Shown one piece after another: positions 9,792 through 63,429 of a stretch of DNA of 64,000 bases; the first letter of the stretch is position 1; each line of letters starts with the position of its first letter. The notes beneath the pieces are model-generated. The model was not told the origin of the DNA, searched no databases, and worked only from the letters and a program-made list of their open reading frames with translations. The position numbers and the translations under genes are program-made. Source of the DNA: a virus; the IMG/VR virus record IMGVR_UViG_3300023184_003179, positions 24,587 through 88,586 of that record. One strand, 5' to 3'.

Positions 9792-12700
9792 TTACATCCT
9801 CCATTATTACTGTGCCATCTTTTGTTTTGCCAAAACTAAATCTATAAGCGTTTCCTTCTTGAATATGCATATACGCTTTTGGAAATGCAGTTGGAAATAC
9901 TGTAACAGAATGCAAATCTCTTGCAGTATCTGCTAAAGTAAGCGATGCCATTTTTTTTCCAGTTTTTGTAATTCTTGATTTAAAAGAAACAACAAACATT
10001 TCATCATCTTTGTATGGCAGTTGTTTATAGTTTAAAAATTTTACAAGAGCATCTGATGAACTTTTTAATTCATCAACTGGTATTGCAGACAAAATACGAT
10101 TATCACTTACTAAAATCAAACAAGTTTTTCCAGTTTCAATTTTTGTTTGTTCTTCGTCAAAAATTCCAACACTACCAGTCTTATCAAGTATTTCAACTCT
10201 TGACCAGCCTTTACCACGTTTAATTGATTTAACCATGCCCATAATGATAAATGATCCTTTTTCTTCAAAATCTTCAATTGGTTGAATAAAGGCATAATAG
10301 TGCGAAGGAACTGTAATATTAAATTCTGGAAGATTTAAATATTCATATAGGTTTTCTTTAATTTCATTGTCGTTACGTGGATTATCAACAAAAGTTGCTG
10401 CTCCAGTTAATCTTAATGCGCTTAGTGCTCTACTGTTTACTCCATTACCTTTAGTAAATGTAAACTCTTCAAGTTCTTTGTAAGTAGCAAATGGTCTTGC
10501 TGCAATATATTTAGATGCAATATTATCTGAAATAAATTTAATTCCAGTTAGTCCAAAACGAATTCCCTTACCTTCAATTTTAAAATCTAGATCTGAATCA
10601 TTAATGTGTGGAAGTTTAACTGAAATACCCATGCGTTTTGCTTCAATTAAATATTCTGTACGACCATCTTTATCTTTTTCATTTTTAAGAAGGGCAAACA
10701 TAAACTCTAACGGATAGTAGTATTTGAGCCACGCTGTCCAATACGAGAGAGTACTGTAAGCAACGGCATGCGATTTGTTAAACGAGTAGCCTGCATGTGC
10801 TTCAAAATCATGCCACAAATCCAAAGCGGAATTAGGAGTAATATACCTAGAGGCACCAGTAACAAACCTATCACGGAATTCATCAAATTCTTTCGCATCT
10901 TTTTTCTTTCCAATAATTTTACGAACTTTGTCAGCCTCTGCCATTGTCATTCCACCTAGATGAACGCAAGCCTGCATAACTTGTTCCTGATATAGAATAC
11001 ACCCATATGTATCGCTAGTAAAATCTTTCATAATTTGATGTATATAAGATACATTTTGCTTACCGTGTTTACGAGCAATATAGTCTTTACCAATTGTATT
11101 CATTGCTCCTGGACGCACTAGTGCATTTGAGGCTGCTAGTTCATTAAAATTCTTTACCCCCATTTTTACTAGAAGGTTTGTGTATGGAGTTGCTTCACAC
11201 TGAAACACACCCTTAGTGTATCCATCAGAAAGCATCTCATAAATCTTTGAATCTGCCATGTCAAGAGTAAGTAGGTCAACATCTACATAGTGATTTTCTT
11301 TAATCATAGATACTGCATCTTGAATAACGCTCAAAGTTTTTAGTCCAAGAGCATCAATTTTAATTAAGCCAATTTTTTCTGCTTCACTCATATCAATTCC
11401 AACAACAGGAATTCTTTCATCTGATCCTGGTGACGAACGAGTTTCTAATGGAGCATATCTAAATATTGGATCTTTACTTGTTACAACTCCTGCTGCGTGA
11501 ATTCCAGTACCACGAATTCTTCCACGTAACTGATCTCCATATATAACAACTTCTGGATATTTTTCTCTAAACCAAACAGTATTCTTGGATGTGCAAAACT
11601 CATCCCAAGTATCAACAAGTTTAAGAACTTTATTAACATCTGTTAAAGGAATATCAAGAACTCTAGAAACGTCTCTTACTACTCCTTTATCTTTAAATTC
11701 AAGGAATGTAGCAATAGATGCAACGTGTCTATACTGTCTAACTAAATAATCTTTTACATCATCACGTCTTGTGTCTTGAATATCTGTATCAATATCAGGA
11801 AAGTCATTACGCTCTGGATTAATAAATCTAAAGAAAAGAAGTCCGTGTTCTAATGGATCAATATCTGTAATTCCAAGTAGATAACAAACTAATGATCCAG
11901 CAGAAGAACCACGACCAGGACCAACCATGATGTTTTCTTTTTTAGCCCAAGAAATCATATTTTGAACTACAAGAAAATATGGTGCAAACTTTTTATCCCG
12001 AATAATTGCAAGTTCTTCGTCTAATCTTTGTTCATAAATGTCATTGCCGAGCCAATTAGAGTTAAGTCTTTTTTCTTCTAATGCAGTAAATGCTAAGTTT
12101 GCCAACTCTTGATCTGGATTTTTATATTGAACTGGAAGAAGGTTTAACCCATCTTTAATGTCATAGTCTTCTACTGTATCTGCTAATTTTAATGTATTGT
12201 TGTAAATATCTGTCCTATTAATACCCTGCGCTTCCATAGCAGACTTAATTTCTTCATATGACAACAAGTGAATATCAAATTTGTTAAAGGTAATTTGACG
12301 ATCTTCTCCATAAAGATAGTCAAGGCGAGACATCATATTTTCTTTCTTTTTAGACTTTTCATATGATGCTTCTTTATTTACTTTAGCATGTGTATTCATG
12401 AGTAATTTAAACTCTTGAATCTCTCTTTGAGATGTGTCTGAATGGTGGCAGTCTGGAGTTACAACAACATCAATTTTAAATTCATCAGCAAGTTCAATAA
12501 GATGTTTATTAATTTCTGGAGTGTTGTGTGGCATAACCTCAATGTAATAATCACTACCAAAAGTATCTTTAAACCACTGTATATGTTTCTTTGCAAGAGC
12601 AAATTCATTTTCTTCAAGCGCCTTTACAATAACGCTACTTGGACATGCAGAGGTTACAATAATTCCTTCTCTGTATTTTTTAAGAATTTCAAAGTCAAAC

Positions 12701-13751: not shown

Positions 13752-14675
13752 CTATCTTAACATACCAATAATAGAATTGTCAAACTGAAATTCCAGTTTT
13801 TTAATTGCATCATCATCCATGTCGCCTATATCTTTGTATTTTTTATCTATATAAACTGATGTAACTATAGATCCAAGTTTTTCAATTAACTTATCTCTCA
13901 TTATTACACCAGCATCGTCGTTATCTGCAATCAGTACAACGTTATTAAAATATTTTTCTAATAACTTTATCTGTGCTGCAGAAACATTTGCCCCTAGGGT
14001 AGCAACCGCAGGGAATCCAACTTGGTCTAGTCTAATTGCATCAAAAGATGATTCAACAACATAAACAGTGCTTGATGCTTTAATTCTATGAAGATTAAAC
14101 AATACCTTACCTTTTGGCAATCCAGGTGTATTTTTAAATTCTTTTCCCTCAACAGTTCTAGCAACAAACCCTATACACATTCCATCTGGTGAGTGTATTG
14201 GTATTGTTACTGAGTCTTGTTTTTCTGAATATCCAAGATTAAATTTATTGATAGATTCTTTTGTAATACTTCTTCCTTCAAAATATCTAACTGCCCTTGG
14301 AGACTCTAATGCTTGATTAGTTAATCTTTTAATTAGAAGTTCATCATATTGTACAAATTCTGGTTTTTCAACCAAAGCCCTGTTAACTGAATCTTCAATG
14401 TTTGTTTCTTGTTCTTTGCTTTTAATATATCTAATTGATTCAAAATATGTTCTGTTAGATGTATACATTATAAATTCAATAAGACTTTTTGTTGTTTGGC
14501 ATCCAAAACAAAAAAACGTTCCATGATCTTTTGATACTTCTCCAGCAGGAGTTCTATTGTTATTGTGATATGGACAAAAGACAATATAGTCAGTTCCATA
14601 CTCTGCTTCAATATCAATTCCAGCACCAGTTAAAACACGACGTACCTGTTCTGCCGTATATATATCTTTAACCAT
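13752..14675 (-). CDS. dnaG: DNA primase (CHC2 zinc finger plus TOPRIM)
   Basis: This 307-residue primase lays RNA primers for the DnaE-like polymerase. The CHC2 zinc finger is complete: C34, H37, C56 and C59 (CPYH and CFGC). The TOPRIM domain is visible as VYVVESSFDAIRL (catalytic Glu), GANVSAAQ and LIADNDDAG (Asp pair). The usual C-terminal helicase-interaction domain is absent: the protein stops soon after TOPRIM, about half the length of bacterial DnaG. The separate DnaB-like gene sits just upstream with one gene between. ATG 14675 overlaps the stop of the preceding gene, so translation is coupled. Confidence 0.93.
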   Translation of the reverse strand: MVKDIYTAEQVRRVLTGAGIDIEAEYGTDYIVFCPYHNNNRTPAGEVSKDHGTFFCFGCQTTKSLIEFIMYTSNRTYFESIRYIKSKEQETNIEDSVNRALVEKPEFVQYDELLIKRLTNQALESPRAVRYFEGRSITKESINKFNLGYSEKQDSVTIPIHSPDGMCIGFVARTVEGKEFKNTPGLPKGKVLFNLHRIKASSTVYVVESSFDAIRLDQVGFPAVATLGANVSAAQIKLLEKYFNNVVLIADNDDAGVIMRDKLIEKLGSIVTSVYIDKKYKDIGDMDDDAIKKLEFQFDNSIIGMLR

Positions 14676-15406
14676 TATTTATATTCTTTTCTTGTCCAAA
14701 ATTTATATTTATATGTTCTAATAAATCTTGTTTTTACTATGTTGTCAAGAATAAAATCTGTTGATGCATCCCTATCCTTTTTTTCTGAAATCCAGGACTC
14801 TCTTTTTATTGGTATTAATTGTGCTATTGGAGTTCCCTCTGGAATTATTCCAATAAAATTATCTTTTATAAAAAATGGAAGAAAAAGTTTATTTGGATAT
14901 TTATCTGTATCAACAAAAGCAGTTAATGTTGTAAATGGTAAATCATATCTTTGTGATGGATGAGTAATCCAAGTACTATACCCAGGTGGTGTTTTAATTA
15001 TCCAATCTACTGACCAGCGAAATGAAGTTGGATTGTGTCCAGTTGGGATTGGAAAATTTCCTAAAGTGCGATCATCTTGAATATCTGCTGGGTCCCATTT
15101 AATTCCCCACTCAATATATGGTGAATATCCTTCCTCTGCGCTGTTTGTAACTAAAATATCACATGGAGTAACAAATTGATATCCAGATGTGACTGAATCA
15201 ACCAATGGAACACAAAGTTTAAATGTTCCTATATCGTTATTTCCTGATTTAAATGCTTTTATCATATTGTTTTGATTATTTGAAAATAATTTTTGATTTC
15301 TATACCAAGTTGGGACATTGCTTGTTGATGGTTTTGGAATATCTAAAATAAATTTAGCAGCATCATTACCTTCTTGAAAAATAATTTTTTTATTTTTTTT
15401 AAACAT
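14675..15406 (-). CDS. Uncharacterised GYS/TPGTPI-type protein, paralogue 1 of 3
   Basis: A 243-residue protein of a family present three times here (also 54151-54876 and 60804-61535). Shared blocks, in order: VPTWYRN; CVPLVDSVTSGY then PCDI; IIKTPPGYST; a Pro/Arg segment HPSQRYDLPF; FVDTDKY; and a C-terminal block of the form IPEGTPIAQLIPIKRESW. The last block resembles the end of a cupin-like double-stranded beta helix, but I see no sure metal ligands. I believe related phage proteins are listed as DUF6065 (memory, unchecked). ATG 15406 with GAGGAT fits its paralogues' lengths better than a longer frame. It sits oddly between the helicase and primase genes. Confidence 0.8.
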   Translation of the reverse strand: MFKKNKKIIFQEGNDAAKFILDIPKPSTSNVPTWYRNQKLFSNNQNNMIKAFKSGNNDIGTFKLCVPLVDSVTSGYQFVTPCDILVTNSAEEGYSPYIEWGIKWDPADIQDDRTLGNFPIPTGHNPTSFRWSVDWIIKTPPGYSTWITHPSQRYDLPFTTLTAFVDTDKYPNKLFLPFFIKDNFIGIIPEGTPIAQLIPIKRESWISEKKDRDASTDFILDNIVKTRFIRTYKYKFWTRKEYK

Positions 15407-16625
15407 TTTTATCCTCATAATCCTTATAGCGATAGTACCCTCTATCAAAATCTACTTGAACTAAAAAGTCACCCATAAAACCATTTCTATTTTTTCTAAA
15501 TACGCATTCAATAATATCACTATTCGTAGCACGACCAAGAGCCATAACCCAGTCAGCATCGTATGCAATTTGTCTTGACCAAGCAGTCTGTCCAAGAGTT
15601 GGGGGACTAGACAAATCTTTAACATCATCTGGTGTAGCAGAAGAGATAGCCATAATTGGAACTTCTTCGCTAATAGACATAAGTTTTAATTCACGAGAAA
15701 GATTCTTCATGCGAACTGTTTCATTATCTGATTTTTGATTTGGAGACATAAGTTGTAAATAATCAACAACAACAAAGTCTGGCTTGTACTGATCAATCTT
15801 TCCACGTATAACTGAAGGAGTTACTTCTCCACCACTGTCATTAGATATGATGTGAAACTCTGGTTTACCCTGCAACTTATCAGCATGCCATTTTTTAAGC
15901 ATATCAATTTCTACTTCGCCATTGCTTAGTTTACGATGAGACCAAAGACCTTCACCCATAATTGCAAACACACGATTACGTACTTCTGTTTCAGACATTT
16001 CAAGACTTATAACAAGTGGACTGCGACCCTGTTTCCAAGCCTGTACAGCAAAATACAGAGCCAGCCAAGACTTTCCAATACCTGGATATGCAAGGAATAC
16101 TCCAAGTTGTCCTGGCATAATTCCAGATGGTAAATAATTATCAAATCCAGGAAGGCCAGTCTTGATTCCAACCTGTCCAAGGTCTTGCATTTTCTTTACA
16201 TTTTCAAAATAAGCAACTGCAGAATCAAGATCAGTTACTTCAATATCTCTAATTGCAGCAGTATTCTTTTTAAGTTCTGATGTCTTAGTAATTAAATGTT
16301 CAAGAGCATTATTGCCATTACCACTTTGAACTTCACCTGCTGCATTACGTAAAATATCTTTAAGGCTATCATTTAAATATTCTGATTGCAATTCTTCAAG
16401 GTGATGCTTTGTTGCCCCAACTCCTTCTACTGGAGCAAAATCTCTAAACTTTTCTACAACTAATGATGTTGGTGGAACTGATTGATTATTTTCTGAATAC
16501 TGTCTAATAAAATTCCAGACATCATTATGAGTTCTTAAAAGATTATCAACATTGGCTTGCAAAAGTACGTGAATCTGTTTATCGTTTAATACTGCAGTAA
16601 TTAATTTTGCTTCTGTATTATTCAC
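15399..16625 (-). CDS. dnaB: Replicative DNA helicase (DnaB-like)
   Basis: A 408-residue RecA-fold helicase. The N-terminal about 130 residues are helical, as in DnaB. A linker leads to KTGLPGFDNYLPSGIMPGQ, the conserved entry to the motor. Walker A is AYPGIGKS (residues 179-186), followed by ISLEMSETEV (H1a-type Glu), Walker B FVVVDYLQLM, and a late DnaB motif, VMALGRAT and CVFRKNRNG (arginine finger region). It is somewhat shorter than bacterial DnaB (about 470). It would load at the phage origin and work with the primase at 13752. It overlaps its upstream neighbour, a possible loader, by 8 bp. Confidence 0.93.
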   Translation of the reverse strand: MNNTEAKLITAVLNDKQIHVLLQANVDNLLRTHNDVWNFIRQYSENNQSVPPTSLVVEKFRDFAPVEGVGATKHHLEELQSEYLNDSLKDILRNAAGEVQSGNGNNALEHLITKTSELKKNTAAIRDIEVTDLDSAVAYFENVKKMQDLGQVGIKTGLPGFDNYLPSGIMPGQLGVFLAYPGIGKSWLALYFAVQAWKQGRSPLVISLEMSETEVRNRVFAIMGEGLWSHRKLSNGEVEIDMLKKWHADKLQGKPEFHIISNDSGGEVTPSVIRGKIDQYKPDFVVVDYLQLMSPNQKSDNETVRMKNLSRELKLMSISEEVPIMAISSATPDDVKDLSSPPTLGQTAWSRQIAYDADWVMALGRATNSDIIECVFRKNRNGFMGDFLVQVDFDRGYYRYKDYEDKNV

Positions 16626-44873: not shown

Positions 44874-46907
44874 TTAATAAAGTTTAATCTCACAAGCATC
44901 TGTAGAGCAATACTTTTCAGATTCTGCGTCTAAATTATCTTTACCATCGTATATTGCAGACCAGTCAATCTTACCAATTGTTCCAACATAGGCGTTATAT
45001 TCTTCTCTTGTGATCTCTGTATATGGCTGTTGAGGATATGTTTTATTTCCCATTGGAAGAAATGATACTGCCTTTAACTGACCTTCATACATATTAAGTG
45101 CTGGAGCAACAAACTTTGTTTCCTCTTCCTTGTCAAATGATAATGTTACGGAAACACCATTATCTGACCAGTACTTCTGAGCAGTTGCTGCCAAACCAAT
45201 TTTTTCAAATAGACTTACTTGTTTTTCAGAACGCTTATGTCCTGATGCAACTGGGAAATAAACTACTGATGTATTTGCTGATACTAGGTCATCTTCAATT
45301 TTATACCCTGCTGCTTTAAATAAATGAAGCATTGGATCTGTATTGCCAAAACGAATAGCACGAAGATAAAACTCTCCTCCAGGTCCCCAGTGAACTCCAG
45401 GAGTTGCACCAGAAAGAAGTGACACAGAACCTGATGGCTTAACAGTAGTTACACGAACTGATTCACGAACACAAAGCCATTCTGAATATGAATGATCATA
45501 TTTACGAATTGTATTATATCCTTCGTCCATCCATTCACGAATAACTGGAAGACCATGTTCATCTGCAAATGCTGCAATGCCTGTAAGAGATGTTCCAATA
45601 CGACGATTGCGTTGCATAATTCCATTTGTCTGTTGCCAGTGTGTTGGCATTAAAGTTACAGTCTTTCCATATAGATATGCAAACTTTAATGTCTTTAAAA
45701 AATCTTCTTTTGATTCATGACGGTTAAGGTGTACTTCAACTAACGTACATAATTCGTATGATTCTAATGGTTGTTCTGCACAAGGATTAAATCCCATAAT
45801 GCGTGAGTCTTTGTAATCTGGAGCATCTGCAAGACGACCATAACTACGAGCAACATCTAACCAGATAAATCCTGGCTCTCCGTTATCTGCAATTAAATCT
45901 ACATAATCTTCATACTTAGTTCCAACCTCAGCAGAAATAGAGTTGTTAGACATCCATGCCCAACCTGGTTTTTCTGGATCGTATGAGTTACGTTCTGGAA
46001 ATACTTCTGGATTTTTTAAGTTAATAAATGTTTCATCACCTGGTGCTCCAAGAGCAAGAGTGGCAGAACGACGAACATTTCCAGAAACAACACATGTGCC
46101 AATAAGATTAACAATATCTACAATTGCACGAGAGTCAAGTGTTTCTCCTGCTCTAGAACCAATGACATTACGAATTCGTATATGGAGATCCATAAGTGGC
46201 TGTAGACCGCTTGCAACACCTCCAAACCCCTTAATTGGGGCACCTAGAGGTCTGATTAAACTATAGTCAAACTCTTGAATAGATTGATTTTGACGTAAAA
46301 ATGAGTTTAGAAGATATCTAACAGATTCAACCCATCCTTCACGAGTATCTGGAATTTCATAAGTAATTGATGGCTCAGTAGGTGCATAAATAGGTAAATT
46401 TTTATCATTTCCAACGGTATCAAACCCAACACCAATACCCAACATTAATGCATCCATTACCCATGCAAATAAAGCACCTGGATCATTACGATCAATGTCA
46501 CGAGTAGATACCATTGCACAATTTTGAAGGGATGCTGAATTGCGCTTTTCCATAGTCATGGGTGTACCAAATGCCCAAAGACCACGACCTGGTGGAGTCC
46601 ACTTTAGTTCAAACATTCTTTGAAAGGCTTCTTGTGCAGACTTTTGAGCCTTATTATCATTCCATGGTAGACGATTATCTTTAGCATGATTTTTTTGTAC
46701 TGAATACATACCTTCAATTACACGACGACAAACTTCGTGCCAGCGTTCTTTTGTTCCATTTTCTTTTATACGAGAATATGTGCGAATAAACGTAATCTCT
46801 CCCAAAGAGTTAGATCCTGCATCAGAAAAACCAAATGGGGCAGGAACTCCTGAATATTTTGTTACAAAATCTTCTGATAAACGAAAAGAAAAAACACTGT
46901 CAGACAT
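44874..46907 (-). CDS. nrdJ: Adenosylcobalamin-dependent ribonucleotide reductase (class II, monomeric)
   Basis: This 677-residue enzyme makes deoxynucleotides using B12 instead of a separate radical subunit. All expected cysteines are visible: C130 (LQNCAMVST), the thiyl C376 with E378 (NPCAEQ), C387 (YELCTL), and the C-terminal redox pair C667/C672 (CSTDAC). Numbering uses ATG 46907, which has GAGAGG 12 nt upstream; a TTG at 46919 is less likely. It needs neither nrdB nor nrdG, and none is seen. No B12 riboswitch motif is evident. Instead the leader has an inverted repeat at its 5' end. It is placed oddly among structural genes. Confidence 0.95.
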   Translation of the reverse strand: MSDSVFSFRLSEDFVTKYSGVPAPFGFSDAGSNSLGEITFIRTYSRIKENGTKERWHEVCRRVIEGMYSVQKNHAKDNRLPWNDNKAQKSAQEAFQRMFELKWTPPGRGLWAFGTPMTMEKRNSASLQNCAMVSTRDIDRNDPGALFAWVMDALMLGIGVGFDTVGNDKNLPIYAPTEPSITYEIPDTREGWVESVRYLLNSFLRQNQSIQEFDYSLIRPLGAPIKGFGGVASGLQPLMDLHIRIRNVIGSRAGETLDSRAIVDIVNLIGTCVVSGNVRRSATLALGAPGDETFINLKNPEVFPERNSYDPEKPGWAWMSNNSISAEVGTKYEDYVDLIADNGEPGFIWLDVARSYGRLADAPDYKDSRIMGFNPCAEQPLESYELCTLVEVHLNRHESKEDFLKTLKFAYLYGKTVTLMPTHWQQTNGIMQRNRRIGTSLTGIAAFADEHGLPVIREWMDEGYNTIRKYDHSYSEWLCVRESVRVTTVKPSGSVSLLSGATPGVHWGPGGEFYLRAIRFGNTDPMLHLFKAAGYKIEDDLVSANTSVVYFPVASGHKRSEKQVSLFEKIGLAATAQKYWSDNGVSVTLSFDKEEETKFVAPALNMYEGQLKAVSFLPMGNKTYPQQPYTEITREEYNAYVGTIGKIDWSAIYDGKDNLDAESEKYCSTDACEIKLY

Positions 46908-46940
46908 AGAATTTAACAACCTCTCAAATAAAAATAATGA

Positions 46941-54120: not shown

Positions 54121-54152
54121 ATACCCCATCATTAATTTGGTGGGGTATTTTT
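54121..54152 (+). terminator. Intrinsic terminator of lysozyme gene
   Basis: ATACCCCA/TGGGGTAT (54121-54128 with 54141-54148), 12-nt loop, then TTTTAT. It lies 14 nt past the lysozyme stop codon. The stem also faces the end of the convergent minus-strand gene, so it could work weakly in both directions. Confidence 0.8.
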
Positions 54153-54876
54153 ATTTATATTCTTTTTTTTGTCTATATAAAGTTTTATATGAATCAAAAA
54201 ACTTTGTACGTAAAAGTGAAAAAATTTTATTTTGATTAAGCATGTCTTCTTCGCTTCCTAACTCCATTTCCCAAGAATCTCTTTTAAATGGTATGGCTTG
54301 CACAATTGGTGTTCCAGCGGGTATTAAACCTTTGAATTCTATATTTTTTAAAACAAATGGAAAGTTTACTGGAGCAGTGTATTTATCAGTATCAACAACT
54401 CCTGGAAGTATTGAAAAAACAGACTCTCTATGTAAAGGTTCTATAAAAAGTGTTGAATATCCTGGTGGTGTTTTTATTGACCATGGATTTATCCATTTAG
54501 GATAAGTAATTTCATGCCCTGAGTTATTTGGATGATTTGGTGCTTGTTCAACTGGATGAAATTGAATAATACCAAAACTTGACCATTCATATGTTGGTTG
54601 TGTTATTTTTGGATTTTCTGGATTCACTGGAACTCTTCCTATCCAAACATCGCATGGTGATGGAATAATATATCCAGCATTTATAGAATCAAAAACTGGC
54701 ATACATTTTTTTATTGTTGCAGTTGTATTTCCATTTCCATCTGGTTTTTTTTCTCCATCTATGTAGGAGTTTAACTCTTTATACCACTCTGGAACATATT
54801 TTGATGCTGGCTTAGGATAATATTCTTCTGGAATACCAAGCATGTTTGTAAATTTTATTTTAACGTTATCATCCAT
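54151..54876 (-). CDS. Uncharacterised GYS/TPGTPI-type protein, paralogue 2 of 3
   Basis: A 241-residue member of the same family as 14675-15406 and 60804-61535. Shared elements: VPEWYKE; KCMPVFDSINAGY then PCDVW; WSIKTPPGYSTLF; then VVDTDKY, FPFVLKN, and GLIPAGTPIVQAIPFKRDSW. Compared with the others, the Pro/Arg segment reads EPLHR, so a His moves by two positions. TATACT ends 6 nt before ATG, with no ribosome site, again leaderless-like. It is followed by the methyltransferase-like gene upstream (12-bp gap). Function unknown. Confidence 0.8.
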   Translation of the reverse strand: MDDNVKIKFTNMLGIPEEYYPKPASKYVPEWYKELNSYIDGEKKPDGNGNTTATIKKCMPVFDSINAGYIIPSPCDVWIGRVPVNPENPKITQPTYEWSSFGIIQFHPVEQAPNHPNNSGHEITYPKWINPWSIKTPPGYSTLFIEPLHRESVFSILPGVVDTDKYTAPVNFPFVLKNIEFKGLIPAGTPIVQAIPFKRDSWEMELGSEEDMLNQNKIFSLLRTKFFDSYKTLYRQKKEYK

Positions 54877-54888: not shown

Positions 54889-55608
54889 CTATACACTTTC
54901 TTGTTTAAGATATACGTATTTTGAATTTAAAAAATTAATGTACGTATAAATATATTCATTTACCTTTTCATTTGTTAAGTCTGGAAGTGTTTTTATTTTA
55001 ACAATATTATCTTTAAAATTTTTCCATTCTTCTGAAAAATCTTCTTGATTATTTTCAAATCTAGGATTCTGCCAAGCAAAATTCCTATCCTCATAGCAAG
55101 AAATAAAGTAAAGTTCTTCCATGGACCAAATCCATAAAAGATCATGATTTGGAATATTTTTTGCAATATTATTCATACTTCTAATTTTCCAAAACTCTGG
55201 AGATTTTTCATAATGATCTAATAAAATACAATCATATTTTTCATCTGTCTTGTAGTCTTCAATATCTGCAACCTCTATTGTTACTTTATCTGGAAGAGTA
55301 TTGTTTTCTAAAAAAATATCAACAATATCTTGAGATATTTCTATTATTTTTATAGACTCTACTTCTGGCTTATTTGCAAGCCATAGAGTTAATGTTCCAA
55401 AACCTAAACCACTTTTTAATATTTTTCCATATGCAAGATCATAACTTGAATATAATTCTTTGGCTTCTTTATTATTTTTTATATTAAAAGAATTTTCCTG
55501 TTTTCCTTGCCTATACAAGACATAACTTGTTCCAAGTTTAACAATGTCTATATCATTTTTAAAAGTTTCTTTTATTTTAATTTTAGGAATTGTTTTTCTA
55601 TCGTACAT
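54889..55608 (-). CDS. SAM-dependent methyltransferase-like protein
   Basis: A 239-residue Rossmann-like protein. KILKSGLGFGTLTLWL matches motif I (Gly-rich loop), SIKIIEISQDIV has the acidic residue that binds SAM ribose, TIEVADIEDY is motif II-like, and YDCILLDHYEK is the motif IV-like strand. The layout resembles spermidine-synthase-type methyltransferases. It sits 12 bp upstream of paralogue 2 of the uncharacterised family, so the two may work together. The start codon ATG 55608 is one base from a run of eight G (minus strand). The substrate is unknown. Confidence 0.65.
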   Translation of the reverse strand: MYDRKTIPKIKIKETFKNDIDIVKLGTSYVLYRQGKQENSFNIKNNKEAKELYSSYDLAYGKILKSGLGFGTLTLWLANKPEVESIKIIEISQDIVDIFLENNTLPDKVTIEVADIEDYKTDEKYDCILLDHYEKSPEFWKIRSMNNIAKNIPNHDLLWIWSMEELYFISCYEDRNFAWQNPRFENNQEDFSEEWKNFKDNIVKIKTLPDLTNEKVNEYIYTYINFLNSKYVYLKQESV

Positions 55609-55882: not shown

Positions 55883-55897
55883 AATTTCATTCCTCTG

Positions 55898-57010
55898 CTA
55901 CTGAAGTCCATAAACATAAACTGCGCCACCAGTTCCTGCGCCACCCGCTCCACCAGAGCCAGATCTTGCTCCACCGCCACCGCCACCGCCTGTGCCTTTT
56001 AGTGTTCCAACACCACCTGCTGAACCAGGAGAATTTCCACCTGCACCACCAGATCCGCCACCAATATTGCTGATTCCACCACTGCCGCTTGGCCATGTAC
56101 CATTATAGTCTGTAGATCCACCGCCACCGCCACCGCCATTAGATTGATTTAATGTAGTTACGCCAAGGCCTGTTAATGTAAAGGAAACGCTATTTGGTGT
56201 ATTATTTACATCTCCAGATGAGTTTTGACCAGAGTTTACAGAAGGTTGTCCTGAACCTCCACCAGTTCCTGGACCATTTCCACCATTCCATCTATTGGTT
56301 AATGTAGTTGCATTTGTTGCTGTTGTTGGTGTTACTCCACTTGAATTTACTGTGTTGCCTACTACGCTTAATAAATTTCCAAAAGCAGTTGTTCCTCCAG
56401 AAGATCCTGCATTTCCACCTGCTCCAATATTTACAACATAAGTTTGTCCAGGCGTTACAGTATAATCTGTAAAACCAGATATTGCAGAACTGTTTGCACC
56501 ATTTCCGCCACCACCAGTGTAGTTGTGACCACCTCTTGCAGAATATGAAGTTCCAGAACTACCTCCAGAAGAACCGCCACTGCCTCCTCCTGTTGCAAAA
56601 ACTGTAATTTTTGAAACACCAGCAGGAATTGTATATGTTTCAGATGCTGTAATTGTTCTTAAAAGGGTATATGCACTATTAGTTGTTGTTGATGCACTTG
56701 CTGGACTACTTGGTCCAACTCCAACATTTCCAGTGCCAGCAGCAGAAAATGTATATGACGTGTTTGGTGTAAGTCCACTTACTGTTATAGGGCTTGTATT
56801 TCCACTAGCAGTCAAACTTCCTGGGCTTGATGTAACTGTATAGGTATTTGCAGTTGCTCCAATAGTTGGAAAAGTTAATGCAACATCTATTGCTGTTCCA
56901 GTGCTTGCAGCAGTTGTGCCAGTAATTACTGGGTTAGTTGGAACTGCAACGCTTGTATTATCTGCTGAAAGGTTATTAATTGTTCCCTTTTTTAAACTTC
57001 TGATTGTCAT
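55898..57010 (-). CDS. Glycine-rich fibre adhesin with FN3-like domains
   Basis: A 370-residue protein. The first 60 residues are Thr/Val/Ala-rich, then ITVSGLTPNTSYTFS reads as a fibronectin III domain. From about residue 130 the chain is extremely Gly/Ser/Ala-rich, with several GGGG runs, up to GGGGGGG near residues 290 and 345. In T4-like phages, glycine-rich (polyglycine II) adhesins are the receptor-binding tips (established for gp38-type tips). Here the order suggests an N-terminal attachment part and a C-terminal polyglycine sandwich. It is one of several candidates for host recognition in this block. Confidence 0.7.
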   Translation of the reverse strand: MTIRSLKKGTINNLSADNTSVAVPTNPVITGTTAASTGTAIDVALTFPTIGATANTYTVTSSPGSLTASGNTSPITVSGLTPNTSYTFSAAGTGNVGVGPSSPASASTTTNSAYTLLRTITASETYTIPAGVSKITVFATGGGSGGSSGGSSGTSYSARGGHNYTGGGGNGANSSAISGFTDYTVTPGQTYVVNIGAGGNAGSSGGTTAFGNLLSVVGNTVNSSGVTPTTATNATTLTNRWNGGNGPGTGGGSGQPSVNSGQNSSGDVNNTPNSVSFTLTGLGVTTLNQSNGGGGGGGSTDYNGTWPSGSGGISNIGGGSGGAGGNSPGSAGGVGTLKGTGGGGGGGARSGSGGAGGAGTGGAVYVYGLQ

Positions 57011-57339
57011 TATGAAATCTCTGATCCGTAAGCATTGAACGACATTGTAGCGCTTGATGCATAAACAGTTATAACATCTGTTGTTGCAAGCGTAATTCCA
57101 AGAGTAAGCGTTAAAGTGTCAACCGATGCAATTGTTGTATCGTATGCAATATAGTGTTTGTTTGCAATTGCCTCTCCTGCTGGCCGTATTGCTACTCTAA
57201 ATGTTCCTGCTGATGCTCCTAAGTTTGCAACTGTAATTGTTGATACAACTGCTGAAGTTGCTGCTGGAACTGTATATAAAGACGTGTTTGTGGTTGCTGC
57301 TGGGTTAGATTGCCCAAGCACTTTGTATGCTGTTGCCAT
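57010..57339 (-). CDS. Small beta-barrel virion protein
   Basis: A 109-residue protein rich in Thr/Ala/Val with the pattern of a single beta barrel (TNTSLYTVPAATSAVVSTIT; AGTFRVAIRPAGEA; DVITVYASSATMSF). I know this family as a frequent small structural protein in aquatic phage genomes (VxG-type head/tail fibre proteins), but without a fixed name. It lies directly upstream of the adhesin and shares a base with it, so the two are coupled. It likely decorates the virion or forms a fibre base. Confidence 0.6.
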   Translation of the reverse strand: MATAYKVLGQSNPAATTNTSLYTVPAATSAVVSTITVANLGASAGTFRVAIRPAGEAIANKHYIAYDTTIASVDTLTLTLGITLATTDVITVYASSATMSFNAYGSEIS

Positions 57340-57342
57340 ATT

Positions 57343-57774
57343 TTATCCTCCCATTAACATAAAATTAACTACATATGGATCTGGCAGTGTCTGCCATGAT
57401 GTAATTATACCATCTGTTTGCAAAAATTTACTTGCATTATCAGTTTGACTTGGTATAAAAGCAACCCATGCTGAACCACTATAATACTGAAGTTGGTTTA
57501 TAGTGTTTCCTGAGCCATCTTGTCTTATTACACAGATTGATCCAGCAACTGGAGAGGTAATTGATGCATCTCTTGCTGTTGGGTTAAGGTAATTATTTAT
57601 ACCCTTCTTTCCTATAAGGTGGTCAATAATTGTAACAGTTGATAGATTTGTATGTGGTCCAGCCCATTCAAAAGTTCCAGATGTGTCTGTTTTGCCAGAT
57701 AGTTCATACCAGGTATCATCTGCTGCATTATAGATATACCCTGGCTTTCCATCGTAATTAAATGATGTTGGCAT
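57343..57774 (-). CDS. Fibre-type protein ending in FMLMGG
   Basis: A 143-residue protein starting at ATG 57774 that overlaps the upstream stop (TGATG). It contains SPVAGSICVIRQDGSG and QLQYYSGSAWVAFIP, a fibre-like beta motif also seen in the other fibre genes. The C-terminus, PYVVNFMLMGG, parallels the SEFMLIGA end of the 973-residue fibre. A common end suggests a common tip or partner. Without a catalytic motif it is taken as a tail-fibre component. Confidence 0.6.
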   Translation of the reverse strand: MPTSFNYDGKPGYIYNAADDTWYELSGKTDTSGTFEWAGPHTNLSTVTIIDHLIGKKGINNYLNPTARDASITSPVAGSICVIRQDGSGNTINQLQYYSGSAWVAFIPSQTDNASKFLQTDGIITSWQTLPDPYVVNFMLMGG

Positions 57775-58253
57775 CAAATCACCTGATTAAAAGTGCTAGT
57801 GTCTGCGTTATATACATACATCTCTAGTGGAACTGAACCCTTTTTTATCCATATAACTCCATTTGCCAAACCAGTTGATGGCTGTGTTGTTGTATAAATA
57901 GATGTTGCGGATAAATATCCTACTGGAGCAGCAGCATCTTTGTCCACCCAAATATATCCATTTGGAATTGTTGCAGAAAATGCCGTAAAGTTTGCTGCAA
58001 CGGGTGCAGAGTTTTGCGCTGAAGATATATTTCTTGCTGCCAACTCCAACGCAACTTGATCATCTATTTGCTCTTGCAAATCATTTATAGTATAAGCAAT
58101 TGATGGATTTAATAATTCTGCTGTATCGGTTTCTGCTGTATCAAAATCATATGACCCATAATGATATGCCCTTAAAGCATCCTGAATGTTAGCATCGTCA
58201 ATCAATGCTGGAATTTTAGTTGGTACTAAACTTCCTATATCTTCTACAGCCAT
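57774..58253 (-). CDS. Putative tail-fibre/baseplate protein
   Basis: A 159-residue protein. The first half is helical (IQDALRAYHYGSYDF; YTINDLQEQIDDQVALEL), the second beta-rich with aromatic residues (IPNGYIWVDKDAA, VIWIKKGSVPLEMYVYN). Proteins with this N-terminal helical hairpin and C-terminal barrel occur in many actinophage tail clusters. It overlaps the next gene by one base and has a TGG-TATAAT promoter and AGAGGTG upstream. It is a structural accessory by context. Confidence 0.6.
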   Translation of the reverse strand: MAVEDIGSLVPTKIPALIDDANIQDALRAYHYGSYDFDTAETDTAELLNPSIAYTINDLQEQIDDQVALELAARNISSAQNSAPVAANFTAFSATIPNGYIWVDKDAAAPVGYLSATSIYTTTQPSTGLANGVIWIKKGSVPLEMYVYNADTSTFNQVI

Positions 58254-58260
58254 TGGGTCT

Positions 58261-58282
58261 CACCTCTTTTAAGATTATACCA
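58261..58282 (-). promoter_or_regulatory. Promoter and ribosome site TGG-TATAAT / AGAGGTG
   Basis: Minus-strand TGG-TATAAT (58274-58282), then AGAGGTG (58261-58267), 7 nt before ATG 58253. It starts transcription of the adhesin run independently of the genes to the right. Confidence 0.6.
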
Positions 58283-58288
58283 TTTTTA

Positions 58289-58864
58289 TCAAACTATAGA
58301 GATAAAAATATGTACCGTTTTATTTCCAGTAAGTGCTGACCAACTTGAACCACTGTATTGTGATCCATGTAGGTTTATTACTAGGTTTGTGCCTGCTCCA
58401 ACAAGTGCTGGTACTTCTAGTGAAGATGCAATTGGGTTTGCTCCTTCAATTTGATATTGTATATTAAAATTAGATGCCGTTAGTGGTGATCCAGTAACTG
58501 AAACAATATTTGAGATTGGAATAGTAATAGATCCATTACCAGATGTAAATGGAATTACTTCAACTGCAGAATATATTGCTGGATTCATATGCAAAACTTC
58601 TATCCAAGTATTTCCTCCTGGCTGAGATACATACTGATATAAGTATCCATAGTTTTCTCCAGGAGAAACATTTATATACATATCATTTAATATAAGTGTT
58701 TGACCAAGTAGAACTCCGCTTGATGTTTGTGAATTTGGTTCTCCAGAACCTACAATAAATTTTGTTCCACGAGTTCCTTGTGGACCTATGTCAACTAAAA
58801 CATCAATTGTTTCTGGTGGCCCTAAAACAACAACATCTTCTGTATTTAATAATACGTCTACCAT
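58289..58864 (-). CDS. Putative baseplate/decoration protein
   Basis: A 191-residue beta-rich protein beginning with an extended acidic-hydrophobic segment (MVDVLLNTEDVVVLG), then a Gly-Pro stretch (IGPQGTRGTKF, two collagen-like triplets only) and a barrel (MYINVSPGENYGYLYQYVS). The end is strand-rich (HIFISIV). It is coupled to the upstream RGDTA gene, sharing position 58864. It may be a fibre joined to the RGDTA protein. Family unknown. Confidence 0.55.
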   Translation of the reverse strand: MVDVLLNTEDVVVLGPPETIDVLVDIGPQGTRGTKFIVGSGEPNSQTSSGVLLGQTLILNDMYINVSPGENYGYLYQYVSQPGGNTWIEVLHMNPAIYSAVEVIPFTSGNGSITIPISNIVSVTGSPLTASNFNIQYQIEGANPIASSLEVPALVGAGTNLVINLHGSQYSGSSWSALTGNKTVHIFISIV

Positions 58865-59217
58865 TATGATTCATCTGCTCCAGTAATATCATTTGTTACT
58901 GTAATTGTTCCTGTTAAAATTGTATAAATTTCAGTTGGTCCATTATCTATTTGCACATCATATACATATGTACCAGCAGCAAGGTCTCTTCCAACACCTG
59001 GCAAAATTGTACATGTTACTGTGTCTGCACTGCCATCAACAACTGCTTGTGCTTCATAAGATTGTGTTGGTGCTGGACCTCTTGTATTGGCAATAAAAAA
59101 ATCTGCTGTAAACCCTGTTAAATCAAATGCTGAGCCATTTGCTGTTTTTGGACGTATCACAAATTCAGCGGTATCACCACGATAGTAATTAAAATTATAT
59201 GAGCCTGGAAATGCCAT
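58864..59217 (-). CDS. RGDTA/BppU-like baseplate protein, paralogue 2
   Basis: A 117-residue beta protein with FNYYRGDTAEFVIRP and AGTYVYDVQID, then TGTITVTNDITG. It parallels the RGDTA proteins at 53002 and 60073 (shared RGDTA, shared late strand G-T-I/M). It has TGG-TATAAT and AGGAGGA, thus a regular ribosome site, unlike its two leaderless-type relatives. It opens a cassette with the 191-residue protein. It probably anchors fibres on the tail tip. Confidence 0.65.
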   Translation of the reverse strand: MAFPGSYNFNYYRGDTAEFVIRPKTANGSAFDLTGFTADFFIANTRGPAPTQSYEAQAVVDGSADTVTCTILPGVGRDLAAGTYVYDVQIDNGPTEIYTILTGTITVTNDITGADES

Positions 59218-59220
59218 TAG

Positions 59221-59241
59221 TCCTCCTGCTTAATTATACCA
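59221..59241 (-). promoter_or_regulatory. Promoter TGG-TATAAT with AGGAGGA
   Basis: Minus-strand TGG-TATAAT (59233-59241), then AGGAGGA (59221-59227), 3 nt before ATG 59217. It lies just after the collagen-like gene. Confidence 0.6.
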
Positions 59242-59970
59242 TTAAGAAACTGATATATATATACCTTTTAGTATAACAGCACCTTCATTATCTGATCTGA
59301 TTTGTGGTATACCTCCAAAAACCTTAATAGCCCTATCTTCTATAAAGATAGTTTGATAAAAAGAAAGGTCGTATAAGTATTGATATTTTAGGTTTCCAAG
59401 ATACCCAGTAACTGAGTTTTCATCATCTACAGAGAATGTTCTAATCCATAATTCTGTATTATTATTATATGTCTCTATCTCTAGATCATATCTAACATTA
59501 ACTATTGCACCAGGTTGTAATGTTTTAAAATTAATTCTTTTTGCAACTTGATTTAATAATGATACAGATTTATTTGGAAGATATTTCTCAATACTTTGTT
59601 CTTGATCTACATCTAAAAATATTGATACCCACCCATCGTCTCCTCTTTCTGGACCAATTTTTGTTTTATTTTGATTTGCGTTTTTATAATATGCCCATCC
59701 TTGATATTGACCAGAAGCACTTTCATATGATTGCCCACAACCCTTACCTGGATCTCCTTTAGGACCTTGTGGACCTACTTTGCCATCTTTTCCATCTTTA
59801 CCTGGTATTCCTCTTTCACCTTGTGGTCCTTGTAAACCTTGTGGTCCTTGTGGACCTATATCCCCTTTTTCTCCTTGGATTCCTGGAACAGCAATATACT
59901 CAATTAATTTTTCTTCTTGAACGGTTTCTGAATATTTTTTCTTTTTAGGAAAGTCCATGCTTTTAGTCAT
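59242..59970 (-). CDS. Collagen-like fibre protein
   Basis: A 242-residue protein. After a basic N-terminus, a run of about 16 Gly-X-Y triplets ([15 protein letters not shown] onward, ending GPKGDPGKG) forms a collagen-type triple helix, a common trimeric shaft in phage fibres. The C-terminal 150 residues are a beta-rich head ([39 protein letters not shown]), the likely trimerising and receptor-binding part. I take ATG 59970 because AGGA lies 6 nt before it; another ATG occurs at 59976. It lies below the third RGDTA gene. Confidence 0.75.
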
Positions 59971-59983
59971 GACCATTCCTAAA

Positions 59984-60073
59984 CTACTTTATTTTTGTCT
60001 TAAATATTTTTTTACCAATTTTAATAACTGGCGGTATGAGCGGTGTTGGTGTTGAAACCTTAATTACTGTCAT
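59984..60073 (-). CDS. 29-residue basic mini-protein
   Basis: ATG 60071-60073 shares a base with the stop of the gene above (TAATG) and follows AGGA at 5 nt. The frame gives a 29-residue peptide starting MTVIKVSTPTP, then IPPVIKIGKKIFKTKIK, carrying 7 Lys and no acidic residue. It fills an otherwise empty gap in the operon. Whether it is translated is unproven, but coupling and composition argue for it. It could be a small nucleic-acid or membrane-binding peptide. Confidence 0.4.
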   Translation of the reverse strand: MTVIKVSTPTPLIPPVIKIGKKIFKTKIK

Positions 60074-60471
60074 TATAGTCCTGGTGTTATGTCACTAAGG
60101 ACGCAGATAGTTCCAAGCACTGGAGTCCAGACCATATCTGCATCTGCTCCACTTCCACCCTCTATAGTTACCTGTAGGTCAAATTTTAACTCTGCAGCAA
60201 CTTGTTTATAGGCTGTACCCCAGTTTGAAGTAACTGATGCTGGCGCTGTGATTGTTGCTGTATGTCCGCTTACCTCTACCGCTAGGTCGTCTAGAAGATC
60301 TCCAACTGGATCATACGCTGTTGCTGTATATGTCCAGTCACTTGTATCAAAACCTGTAACTTCATCATCTTCTAGAAATTCTACAAGAAGTGTTGCTGTG
60401 TCTCCACGGACTACTGTCCATTGAATATTGGCTGGTGTAGCACCAAATTTTTCTATTATAGGAGCGCACAT
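60073..60471 (-). CDS. RGDTA/BppU-like baseplate protein, paralogue 3
   Basis: A 132-residue beta protein with NIQWTVVRGDTATLLVEF, DWTYTATAYDP and a late MVWTPVLGTICVL. Like the two other RGDTA proteins it has the VVRGDTA strand near residue 25 and another conserved strand near the end. It is the first gene of the leftward operon at the right side of the window. TGG-TATAAT lies 8 nt before ATG 60471 with no ribosome site, pointing to a leaderless mRNA. It may be a baseplate linker. Confidence 0.65.
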   Translation of the reverse strand: MCAPIIEKFGATPANIQWTVVRGDTATLLVEFLEDDEVTGFDTSDWTYTATAYDPVGDLLDDLAVEVSGHTATITAPASVTSNWGTAYKQVAAELKFDLQVTIEGGSGADADMVWTPVLGTICVLSDITPGL

Positions 60472-60803: not shown

Positions 60804-61535
60804 ATGTTTAAAAATGTAGATAAAAATATTGTCTTTTATCCAGTAAACGATACTGTCCCAAAATTTATTGATCCACCATACCCTTCATCAAAACATAATA
60901 TTCCACAGTGGTACAAAGATATTCCTAAGTATACAAATGGAGATAAAAGTTTTAAATTTTTAAATGGTCATAACTTAACAGTAAAATCATGTTTGCCAGT
61001 AGTTGATTCTTTAACTGCTGGTTATACTTTTGTTTTACATTGTGACGTTCAAGTTCATAGAGATGATCTTGGAAATGCTTTTTTTACATGGGCTTTAAAT
61101 CATCAAGGAATACCAGACATTGTTATAAAAAGAACAAAAGAAGAAAATTGTGCTTGGGATAATATAGAAGGATATGATAGTCTTGATTTTAATTGGTTTC
61201 CGTCTTGGAATATAAAAACTCCAAAAGGATATAGTTCAATTCTTGCTCATCCAATTAATCGCATTGATCTTCCATTTTATACTCTAGGAGGCATATTAGA
61301 TACAGATCGCTGGGGAGAGGCTGGAAATCATCCATTTTTATTAAAAAAAGGCTGGGAAGGAATTATTCCAAAAAATACACCAATAGTTCAAATAATTCCT
61401 TTTAAAAGAGATAGTTGGAAAAGTATAGTAGATCCAACAATGTTTAATGAAAATAGTAAAAATATGGTAATGCGTGATTCATACTTAAAAGATTATTATA
61501 AAAAATATATTTGGAGTAGTAAAAATTATAAATAA
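60804..61535 (+). CDS. Uncharacterised GYS/TPGTPI-type protein, paralogue 3 of 3, halogenase partner
   Basis: A 243-residue protein of the family seen also at 14675 and 54151. It has IPQWYKD (33-39), CLPVVDSLTAGY (63-74), NIKTPKGYSS (136-145), LDTD (165-168) and IPKNTPIVQIIPFKRDSW (188-205). The last block has the look of the final strands of a cupin-like barrel. It lies 27 bp upstream of the halogenase in the same direction, so co-transcription is nearly sure. It may supply a substrate, act on the halogenated product or guard it. I recognise no motif for a flavin reductase. Confidence 0.8.
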   Translation: MFKNVDKNIVFYPVNDTVPKFIDPPYPSSKHNIPQWYKDIPKYTNGDKSFKFLNGHNLTVKSCLPVVDSLTAGYTFVLHCDVQVHRDDLGNAFFTWALNHQGIPDIVIKRTKEENCAWDNIEGYDSLDFNWFPSWNIKTPKGYSSILAHPINRIDLPFYTLGGILDTDRWGEAGNHPFLLKKGWEGIIPKNTPIVQIIPFKRDSWKSIVDPTMFNENSKNMVMRDSYLKDYYKKYIWSSKNYK

Positions 61536-61562
61536 CTATTTGTTTTATAGAATTGGACTAAA

Positions 61563-63155
61563 ATGATAAATATAAATAAAATTGTAATAGTTGGTGCAGG
61601 ATCTGCTGGCTGGATGTCTGCTGCAACAATGGTAAAAGCATTCCCAGACAAAGAAATTGTTGTTATTGAATCTCCAGATTATCCAATTGTAGGTGTTGGA
61701 GAATCAACACTAGGTGCAATTACTGGATGGGCTGATTGGATTGGCATTGATGAAAAAGACTTTATGCCAGAAACAGATGCCGTATATAAAATGTCTATTA
61801 AGTTTACAGATTTTTATAAAAAAGATTCTGGATCATTTCATTATCCGTTTGGAAATGTATTTTTAAATGGCACGGTAAATGGCTTAAATGATTGGTATGT
61901 TAAAAAAGCAAAATTTCCAGATCTAGATGTCGCAGACTATGCTCGTACATTTTTTCCTGCATTAACTTTGGCAGAAAATAATAAACTTTCTTGGAATAAA
62001 AATGGAAAACTTGGCAACTTTAATTTTAAAAGAGATGTTGCATATCATTTTGATGCTACTAAATTTGGTTTGTGGTTAAAAAATAATTATTGTATTCCTC
62101 GTGGAGTAACAGTTATTTCAAAAACAGTTGAATCAATAAAAGTTAATAACAATGGTATTGAGTCTCTTGTTTTAAACGATGGATTACAACTTAGTGCAGA
62201 TTTATTTATTGATTGTACAGGTTTTAAGTCTATGCTTCTTGAAGGCGCTTTAAAAGAGCCATGGAAAGACTTTTCAGACATTCTTCCAAATAATAGCGCT
62301 TGGGCTACAAGGATTCCTTATATAGATAAAGAAATAGAAATGGAACCCTACACTAACTGCACTGCCATTAACAATGGATGGGTTTGGAATATTCCATCTT
62401 GGGAAAGAATTGGAACTGGATATGTATTTAGTGATAAATATGTAACTCCAGAAGAAGCGCTAAAAGAATTTAAAGAACATCTTTTGTCAGATAAAATGAC
62501 AATTTGTGACACAGATCGTGATGTAGAATCTTTTGAGTATAAATTAATTAAATTTAGAACTGGAATACACGAACGCACTTTTGTAAAAAATGTTGTTGCT
62601 ATTGGATTTGCAGCGGGATTTATTGAACCCCTTGAATCTAATGGGCTTTTTACTGTACATGAATTTTTAGATAAATTAGTAAAAACATTAAGTCGCAATA
62701 CAATAACACAATGGGATCGTGATGCCTACAATGTAAGCACTCATCTTCAGTATCTAACATTTTTAGAATTTGTTGCTCAGCATTATGCACTTTCAAATAG
62801 GGAAGATACAAAATATTGGCAAGACATTAGTAATAAAGTTTTTAACGAAGATTTTATAAAACTAGACACACCAAAGGTTTTTGGTTTCCATGATCTTTCT
62901 GATATACAACTTAATCGTCAAAGACATGAGGCACTTGGTGGCATACACTGCATTGCAACAGGACTTAACTATTTTCCAGTAAACAAAGATACAGTACAGC
63001 GCTGGGAACACCATCACGGAATTGATTACTATGAGCGTTGTCAAAAAACATGGGACACATGGAAAATATTTAGAAAGATTTGGCAAGAAGAATCAGATAA
63101 ATCTCCAACAATGTACCAGTGGCTAAAAGAAAACTATTATAGTGATAACCCATAG
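61563..63155 (+). CDS. Flavin-dependent tryptophan halogenase-type enzyme
   Basis: The 530-residue protein matches the length and motif order of PrnA/RebH-type halogenases. GAGSAG (11-16) begins the FAD-binding fold. GVGEST (44-49) is the second conserved flavin motif. K76 (VYKMSIKF) corresponds to catalytic Lys79 of PrnA. WVWNIP (273-278) is the WxWxIP signature that blocks monooxygenation. FIEPLES (353-359) holds the Glu (E355) equivalent to PrnA E346. So the enzyme appears intact. It would chlorinate or brominate Trp or an indole-containing molecule using reduced FAD. A flavin reductase is not encoded here. Upstream lies the family-3 paralogue. Confidence 0.9.
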   Translation: MININKIVIVGAGSAGWMSAATMVKAFPDKEIVVIESPDYPIVGVGESTLGAITGWADWIGIDEKDFMPETDAVYKMSIKFTDFYKKDSGSFHYPFGNVFLNGTVNGLNDWYVKKAKFPDLDVADYARTFFPALTLAENNKLSWNKNGKLGNFNFKRDVAYHFDATKFGLWLKNNYCIPRGVTVISKTVESIKVNNNGIESLVLNDGLQLSADLFIDCTGFKSMLLEGALKEPWKDFSDILPNNSAWATRIPYIDKEIEMEPYTNCTAINNGWVWNIPSWERIGTGYVFSDKYVTPEEALKEFKEHLLSDKMTICDTDRDVESFEYKLIKFRTGIHERTFVKNVVAIGFAAGFIEPLESNGLFTVHEFLDKLVKTLSRNTITQWDRDAYNVSTHLQYLTFLEFVAQHYALSNREDTKYWQDISNKVFNEDFIKLDTPKVFGFHDLSDIQLNRQRHEALGGIHCIATGLNYFPVNKDTVQRWEHHHGIDYYERCQKTWDTWKIFRKIWQEESDKSPTMYQWLKENYYSDNP

Positions 63156-63429
63156 AGATATTTGGAAAATAACCAAAAGGCTATTTGAAAAAAAATATTG
63201 GACAAAGACAAATACTATAGAATTTTGTGCATTTTCAACAAAACTAATGATTATTTTCCCAGGTCTGATATTTGGTATACAGTTCTGGTGGTTTTATTTA
63301 TTTGCATTGGCTTCAAGTCTTGCTTTAATTTTTACATCAACAGTAAAAACACTTCCAACTATTATTTACTTTAATATTGGATGGTGTATTTTAGCAACAG
63401 TAGCAATATCAAAACATTTTATTATTTAG
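63142..63429 (+). CDS. Small membrane protein downstream of halogenase
   Basis: A 95-residue protein starting with GTG 63142 that overlaps the halogenase stop (63155) by 14 bp. It has two to three hydrophobic segments: LMIIFPGLIFGIQFWWFYLF with ALASSLALIF, and IIYFNIGWCILATVAI. The N-terminus is basic (KITKRLFEKKYW). Overlap suggests translational coupling with the halogenase. It could be a transporter, a membrane anchor or a self-protection protein. It also resembles host membrane proteins of unknown function. It ends 8 bp inside a convergent minus-strand gene. Confidence 0.65.
   Translation: MITHRDIWKITKRLFEKKYWTKTNTIEFCAFSTKLMIIFPGLIFGIQFWWFYLFALASSLALIFTSTVKTLPTIIYFNIGWCILATVAISKHFII

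Follow-up and report, generated by a model that had tools for sequence, protein, structure and literature searches.

The window analysed here, the right-hand 64 kb (positions 24587–88586) of an 88,586-bp viral record, carries three plus-strand genes that may well form a phage halogenation module, in which a flavin-dependent halogenase is combined with a small membrane protein (MEM) and with a frequent, non-exclusive protein of predicted dUTPase-like fold, beside tail-fibre genes. As far as the sequence allows us to judge, a module of these three parts, one of them a dedicated membrane protein confined to viruses, would be new. The first gene (60804–61535) encodes a 243-aa phrog_7084/DUF6065-like protein, the second (61563–63155) a 530-aa halogenase of the VirX1 type, assigned by family profiles, motifs and alignment, and the third (63142–63429, with a GTG start) the 95-aa MEM; the halogenase and MEM genes overlap by 14 nt. 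All three genes had been proposed in an earlier note on this DNA, and each was found in its place. The same gene order was observed in eight other loci from at least three lineages. A scan for promoters and terminators returned no more sites than were found in shuffled sequences. A tail-fibre-type module on the minus strand (55898–60471), encoding Gly-rich (370 aa), collagen-like (244 aa) and Ig-like (132 aa) proteins, lies next to the operon and is divergent from it. A Trp-rich open reading frame at 55887–56096 was rejected, since it reads the Gly-rich fibre gene in another frame.

The phage setting that had been claimed for the operon is confirmed by the terminase, portal, tail (tape measure and minor tail) and replication (DNA polymerase and DnaB helicase) genes of the record, which also encodes a head protease. 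Because the large terminase subunit is 53% identical to those of Streptomyces phages and a WhiB regulator is encoded, the host is probably an actinobacterium. A lake actinophage with WhiB also carries a halogenase gene (PMC10611076), and such genes are present in 20 of 153 cyanophage genomes (PMC10452541). Halogenases are already known from phages, ocean viruses among them, and the enzyme itself is therefore ordinary. Elsewhere in the window, a ribonucleotide reductase gene (44874–46919, minus strand) lies within the structural region, flanked by a tail-fibre-like gene and by a gene whose 1154-aa product has no match in PHROGs. A row of genes at the record's left end (locus L003, 663–7001, plus strand) encodes glycosyltransferases, a GDP-mannose-dehydratase-like epimerase and methyltransferases, which suggests glycan modification by the phage.

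The halogenase matched the Trp_halogenase profile PF04820 with an E-value of 2.6e-101 (340 bits against a cut-off of 21; model positions 1–403 of 458) and phrog_2928 with an E-value of 1.9e-147, and both profile and motifs place it among the flavin-dependent halogenases, variant A. The GxGxxG motif (GAGSAG, residues 11–16), K76 (in YKMSIKF) and the WxWxIP motif (WVWNIP, W273–P278) are intact, as the earlier note had it, and so is the FxxPxxSxG motif (FIEPLESNG, F353–G361). The residue proposed there as the catalytic glutamate, E355 (GFIE355P), is indeed intact, but the alignment register places the catalytic Glu three residues further on, at E358 (PLE358S359N360G361), the equivalent of E346 in PrnA and E357 in RebH. 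Loss of the lysine or the glutamate, which would have spoken against a halogenase, is not seen in the alignment, where K76 and E358 are both retained. These intact residues argue for activity, and the phage enzyme is probably active. If the enzyme follows the mechanism of its family, FADH2 from the host, O2 and a halide would yield HOX at the flavin, and K76 would hand the halogen to an electron-rich aromatic substrate, with E358 activating. Supply of reduced flavin by the host, also anticipated, is supported by nine phage records (this one and eight related), in which no flavin reductase of family PF01613 was detected.

One position departs from the characterised enzymes: N360, after ES, stands at the position of PrnA T348, where the aligned characterised enzymes have Thr. 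The T to N change would fit a flavoenzyme of the Trp_halogenase superfamily that does not halogenate, such as a monooxygenase or a LodB/QhpG-type maturase acting on protein Trp, and NCBIfam similarity to LodB and QhpG was found, weak and far under the cut-offs. We consider this reading very unlikely, as K76, E358 and the WxWxIP and FxxPxxSxG motifs are all intact, and WxWxIP is thought to block monooxygenation (PMC8407142). Furthermore, ESNG is as frequent as ESTG among 80 phage relatives (36 vs. 29), so within this sample of sequences ESNG is a common phage variant.

Among proteins of solved structure, the closest relative is cyanophage Syn10 VirX1 (PDB 6QGM), with which the window enzyme aligns over residues 1–527 (E 1.7e-99), including the C-terminal region; both are phage-encoded and share the Lys, WxWxIP and PLES motifs, whereas VirX1 has ESTG in place of ESNG. 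The best Syn10 place is ∼37% identical to the window halogenase at 92% coverage; Syn10 belongs to another phage lineage than the window record with its Streptomyces-phage-like terminase. To our knowledge, the chemistry of VirX1 is established and no natural substrate is known for it. Two reviews describe VirX1 as an experimentally proven broad-specificity halogenase with an open active site and a preference for iodide (PMC6864650; PMC8407142). The tryptophan halogenases PrnA, RebH, PyrH and Thal share the FAD fold, the catalytic Lys and Glu and WxWxIP, but they align with the window enzyme only over residues ∼4–425, and their tryptophan-binding part is not recognisable in it. In contrast to these enzymes, the window halogenase lies outside any biosynthetic gene cluster.

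These comparisons bear on the specificity for free tryptophan that had been considered earlier. An enzyme of that kind might deplete or poison host tryptophan or yield a halogenated indole signal, and the Pfam and PHROG family names and the homology to PrnA, RebH and PyrH (residues 4–425) speak for it. It is nevertheless hardly probable here: of the features expected of a free-tryptophan halogenase (H101, F103 and the C-terminal Tyr-Tyr/Glu/Trp part), the C-terminal part cannot be aligned and the PrnA H101 position is occupied by a tyrosine (Y94), whereas alignment from end to end is obtained only with the broad-specificity VirX1.

A recent bacterial origin of the gene was not borne out. The nearest relatives are viral genes, 67–81% identical, and in the halogenase tree the window enzyme groups among viral halogenases. 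No halogenase relative was found among 27 candidates out of 84,980 prokaryote genomes. The idea that the halogenase or MEM has bacterial relatives was rejected, as the genome-contig scan for each gave none.

The 243-aa protein, earlier described as an uncharacterised partner, can now be given a predicted dUTPase-like fold and is multicopy: it belongs to phrog_7084, of which the record carries four copies. One paralogue (54151–54876, minus strand; phrog_7084 E 2.6e-55) lies in the tail-fibre region and adjoins a methyltransferase-like gene (54889–55608), and another (14675–15448, minus strand) is located between primase and DnaB-like helicase genes. The AlphaFold2 model (pLDDT 94.5) has the predicted fold of the dUTPase superfamily; all 50 PDB matches listed by Foldseek are dUTPase or dCTP deaminase entries, the top ones being dUTPases (probability ∼1.0, E 3e-3 to 3e-2). 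The protein itself gave no significant sequence match to the dUTPase superfamily; among 101 relatives, 58 weakly match DUF6065 (PF19541) and four match dUTPase. GxxDxD and GTPxxQ are near-invariant in the family, like dUTPase motifs 3 and 4, but the motif-3 Tyr is not conserved, the RSS and glycine-rich C-terminal motifs were not recognisable by eye, and the protein is ∼100 residues longer. The nucleotide-type fold suggests, from the model, that the protein binds a ligand rather than halogenates. A 30%-identical halovirus relative adjoins thymidylate synthase, which fits a nucleotide-related ancestry of the family, and the dUTPase-like fold may explain this gene position. In tailed viruses of haloarchaea, such relatives, HSTV-2 gp40 among them, are hypothetical proteins whose genes lie close to those for thymidylate synthase and DNA polymerase. 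A literature search for DUF6065 gave no paper.

Genes for relatives of the 243-aa protein were found in at least 587 viral stretches. Among the best 80 phrog_7084 loci, a halogenase was found within ∼6 kb in six and a 2OG oxygenase in 35; the family was therefore rejected as a dedicated halogenase partner (74 of the 80 loci are without a halogenase nearby). In the loci examined, a sample biased by locus choice, it directly adjoins 83 of 222 halogenase instances. Assignment of phrog_7084 as a 2OG oxygenase was likewise rejected, since HxD...H is not conserved and the predicted fold is dUTPase-like.

The 95-residue membrane protein noted earlier is upheld as a prediction, but as the most informative part of the locus rather than a mere accessory. 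Hydropathy and a structure model of low confidence (pLDDT 68) predict three membrane helices, which are preceded by a basic N-terminal helix, and 28 residues are invariant across 64 sequences. About 500 stretches in IMG/VR encode MEM. It has no meaningful match in Pfam, NCBIfam or PHROGs, and was detected neither in isolated phages (at E 0.01) nor, by a pattern-based scan, in 84,980 prokaryote genomes. A literature search found no account of a membrane partner of viral halogenases. By these sequence searches, MEM appears to be a new, common, virus-only family of membrane proteins, absent from the family libraries searched.

The association of MEM with halogenases was analyzed in two sets of viral loci, the 80 closest to the window's MEM and 80 seeded with divergent members. 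A halogenase was located within 4 kb of MEM in 125 of the 160 loci (66 of the nearest and 59 of the distant set); since IMG/VR contains redundant and fragmentary contigs, and MEM was sampled by best score rather than at random, this and the other linkage figures are strong indications rather than calibrated probabilities. After de-replication at 90%, a halogenase remained near MEM in 63 of 80. A halogenase is present in every one of the 18 MEM-bearing contigs that measure 100 kb or more, and the MEM contigs in which none was found are all ≤91 kb and possibly fragments. By comparison, none of five control contigs of at least 100 kb picked for phrog_7084 contains a halogenase. When 12 large contigs were chosen for phrog_7084 alone, a halogenase occurred in two; exactly these two also carry MEM (Fisher exact, 1 in 66), 15 bp from the halogenase, and MEM was not found in the ten halogenase-free ones. 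Judged by co-presence, whatever the gene order, MEM is a halogenase-specific family.

Such linkage could arise by hitch-hiking, if MEM and the halogenase merely shared a variable cargo region of related phages without a functional link; both genes do lie in variable regions near fibre genes, and the MEM samples were drawn from related phages. This is very unlikely, for several reasons. Three relative arrangements were observed in 64 pairs (halogenase upstream of MEM in 50, MEM upstream of the halogenase in seven, opposite strands in seven), and in four of the large contigs (128–156 kb) the halogenase lies elsewhere, far from MEM. The ten halogenase-free phages mentioned above carry the same cargo family, phrog_7084, without MEM. 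Finally, MEM adjacency is spread over several halogenase clades and needs 10 changes on the halogenase tree, at least six of them forced by well-supported branches.

MEM is not required for halogenation itself, because many halogenase phages are without it: it was found neither in cyanophages Syn10 and Sf-CH11, both with a halogenase, nor in three IMG/VR records, each of which gave one to five halogenase matches. The window phage's second halogenase also has no adjoining MEM. This 533-aa enzyme, one of two in the 88.6-kb record, is encoded outside the window (record positions 8832–10433, minus strand) amid clustered sugar-nucleotide and glycosyltransferase genes. Its row includes a nucleotidyltransferase/HAD fusion, glycosyltransferase 61, a cupin-like gene and WhiB; four other loci share much of this row, followed there by sulfotransferase-like and 2OG oxygenase genes. 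Five loci are dense cassettes of three or four halogenases, three phrog_7084 copies and several 2OG oxygenases; MEM was not found in two records with such cassettes. A 232-aa family, phrog_17480 (locus L003, 18608–19306, minus strand), recurs beside halogenases and phrog_7084 in five other loci.

In the 64 pairs, identity was 57–100% (mean 68) for MEM vs. 21–100% (mean 42) for the halogenase, and MEM was the more conserved partner in 57. Even beside halogenases of 21–30% identity, MEM keeps 57–80%. This pattern weighs on the possibility that MEM is an anchor or scaffold that keeps the halogenase at the membrane to modify a host envelope component (a lipid, quinone, glycolipid or membrane protein). 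The overlapping genes suggest coupled translation, and the basic helix ahead of the membrane helices would suit such a role. We hold an anchor to be possible but rather doubtful: a docking partner is expected to co-diverge with its enzyme, and in the four genomes of at least 128 kb MEM is encoded far from the halogenase.

As MEM changes far less than the halogenases do, its partner would be something constant and not mainly the enzyme surface. MEM might thus serve, at the cytoplasmic membrane, a requirement that very different halogenases share, and the constant element could be halide, a substrate or product that the enzymes have in common, or a component of the host membrane. Of the possible roles, letting a small molecule (halide, substrate or product) through the membrane would be the likeliest, as near-constancy beside halogenases this divergent is odd for a docking partner. 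Halide supply through MEM would be the favoured specific version, halide being, besides oxygen and flavin, the sole small molecule common to all these enzymes. MEM could then act as a small three-helix channel or a SemiSWEET-like carrier. A SemiSWEET-like topology had been guessed from the third helix before a Foldseek search returned SemiSWEET (PDB 5UHS and 4RNG) on top, with TM 0.60/0.68 and a probability of 0.41 at a non-significant E-value of 4.8 for a low-confidence model. Both proteins are ∼95 aa long, with three membrane helices, the third of which contains a P.II..N motif, but the MEM profile matched no PDB sequence even at E 10. The modelled topology fits a transporter, although the match is not significant. 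Only tentatively do we propose MEM as a membrane transport component dedicated to flavin-dependent halogenases, the first of its kind, swapped between phages as a module with differing enzymes.

The neighbourhood of the operon allows a different proposal, in which the halogenase, together with any 2OG oxygenases that the phage encodes, would act on aromatic residues in tail fibres or in other structural proteins and thereby alter host binding or virion stability. The operon adjoins collagen-like, Ig-like and Gly-rich fibre genes, relatives lie between 2OG oxygenases and structural genes (e.g., in Synechococcus phage Sf-CH11), halogenases form cassettes with 2OG oxygenases and phrog_7084 in related loci, and VirX1 has an open active site (PMC8407142). 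Such tailoring is conceivable rather than probable, since fibre regions double as general cargo sites and the conserved membrane companion is left unexplained. The usual order in distant loci is 2OG oxygenase, halogenase, phrog_7084, (2OG oxygenases) and MEM. In many of these loci, MEM is immediately followed by genes for collagen-like fibres, and the 2OG oxygenases of these cassettes could hydroxylate such fibres.

These data assign, by model, a dUTPase-like fold to the very common phage family phrog_7084/DUF6065, and they touch on the open question of why phages carry halogenases. That MEM accompanies such halogenases across many uncultured viruses suggests that the enzyme is one part of a system linked to the membrane, and the presence of MEM across several halogenase clades hints at the probable site of the reaction or of its product. 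MEM thereby provides a concrete handle on phage halogenases.
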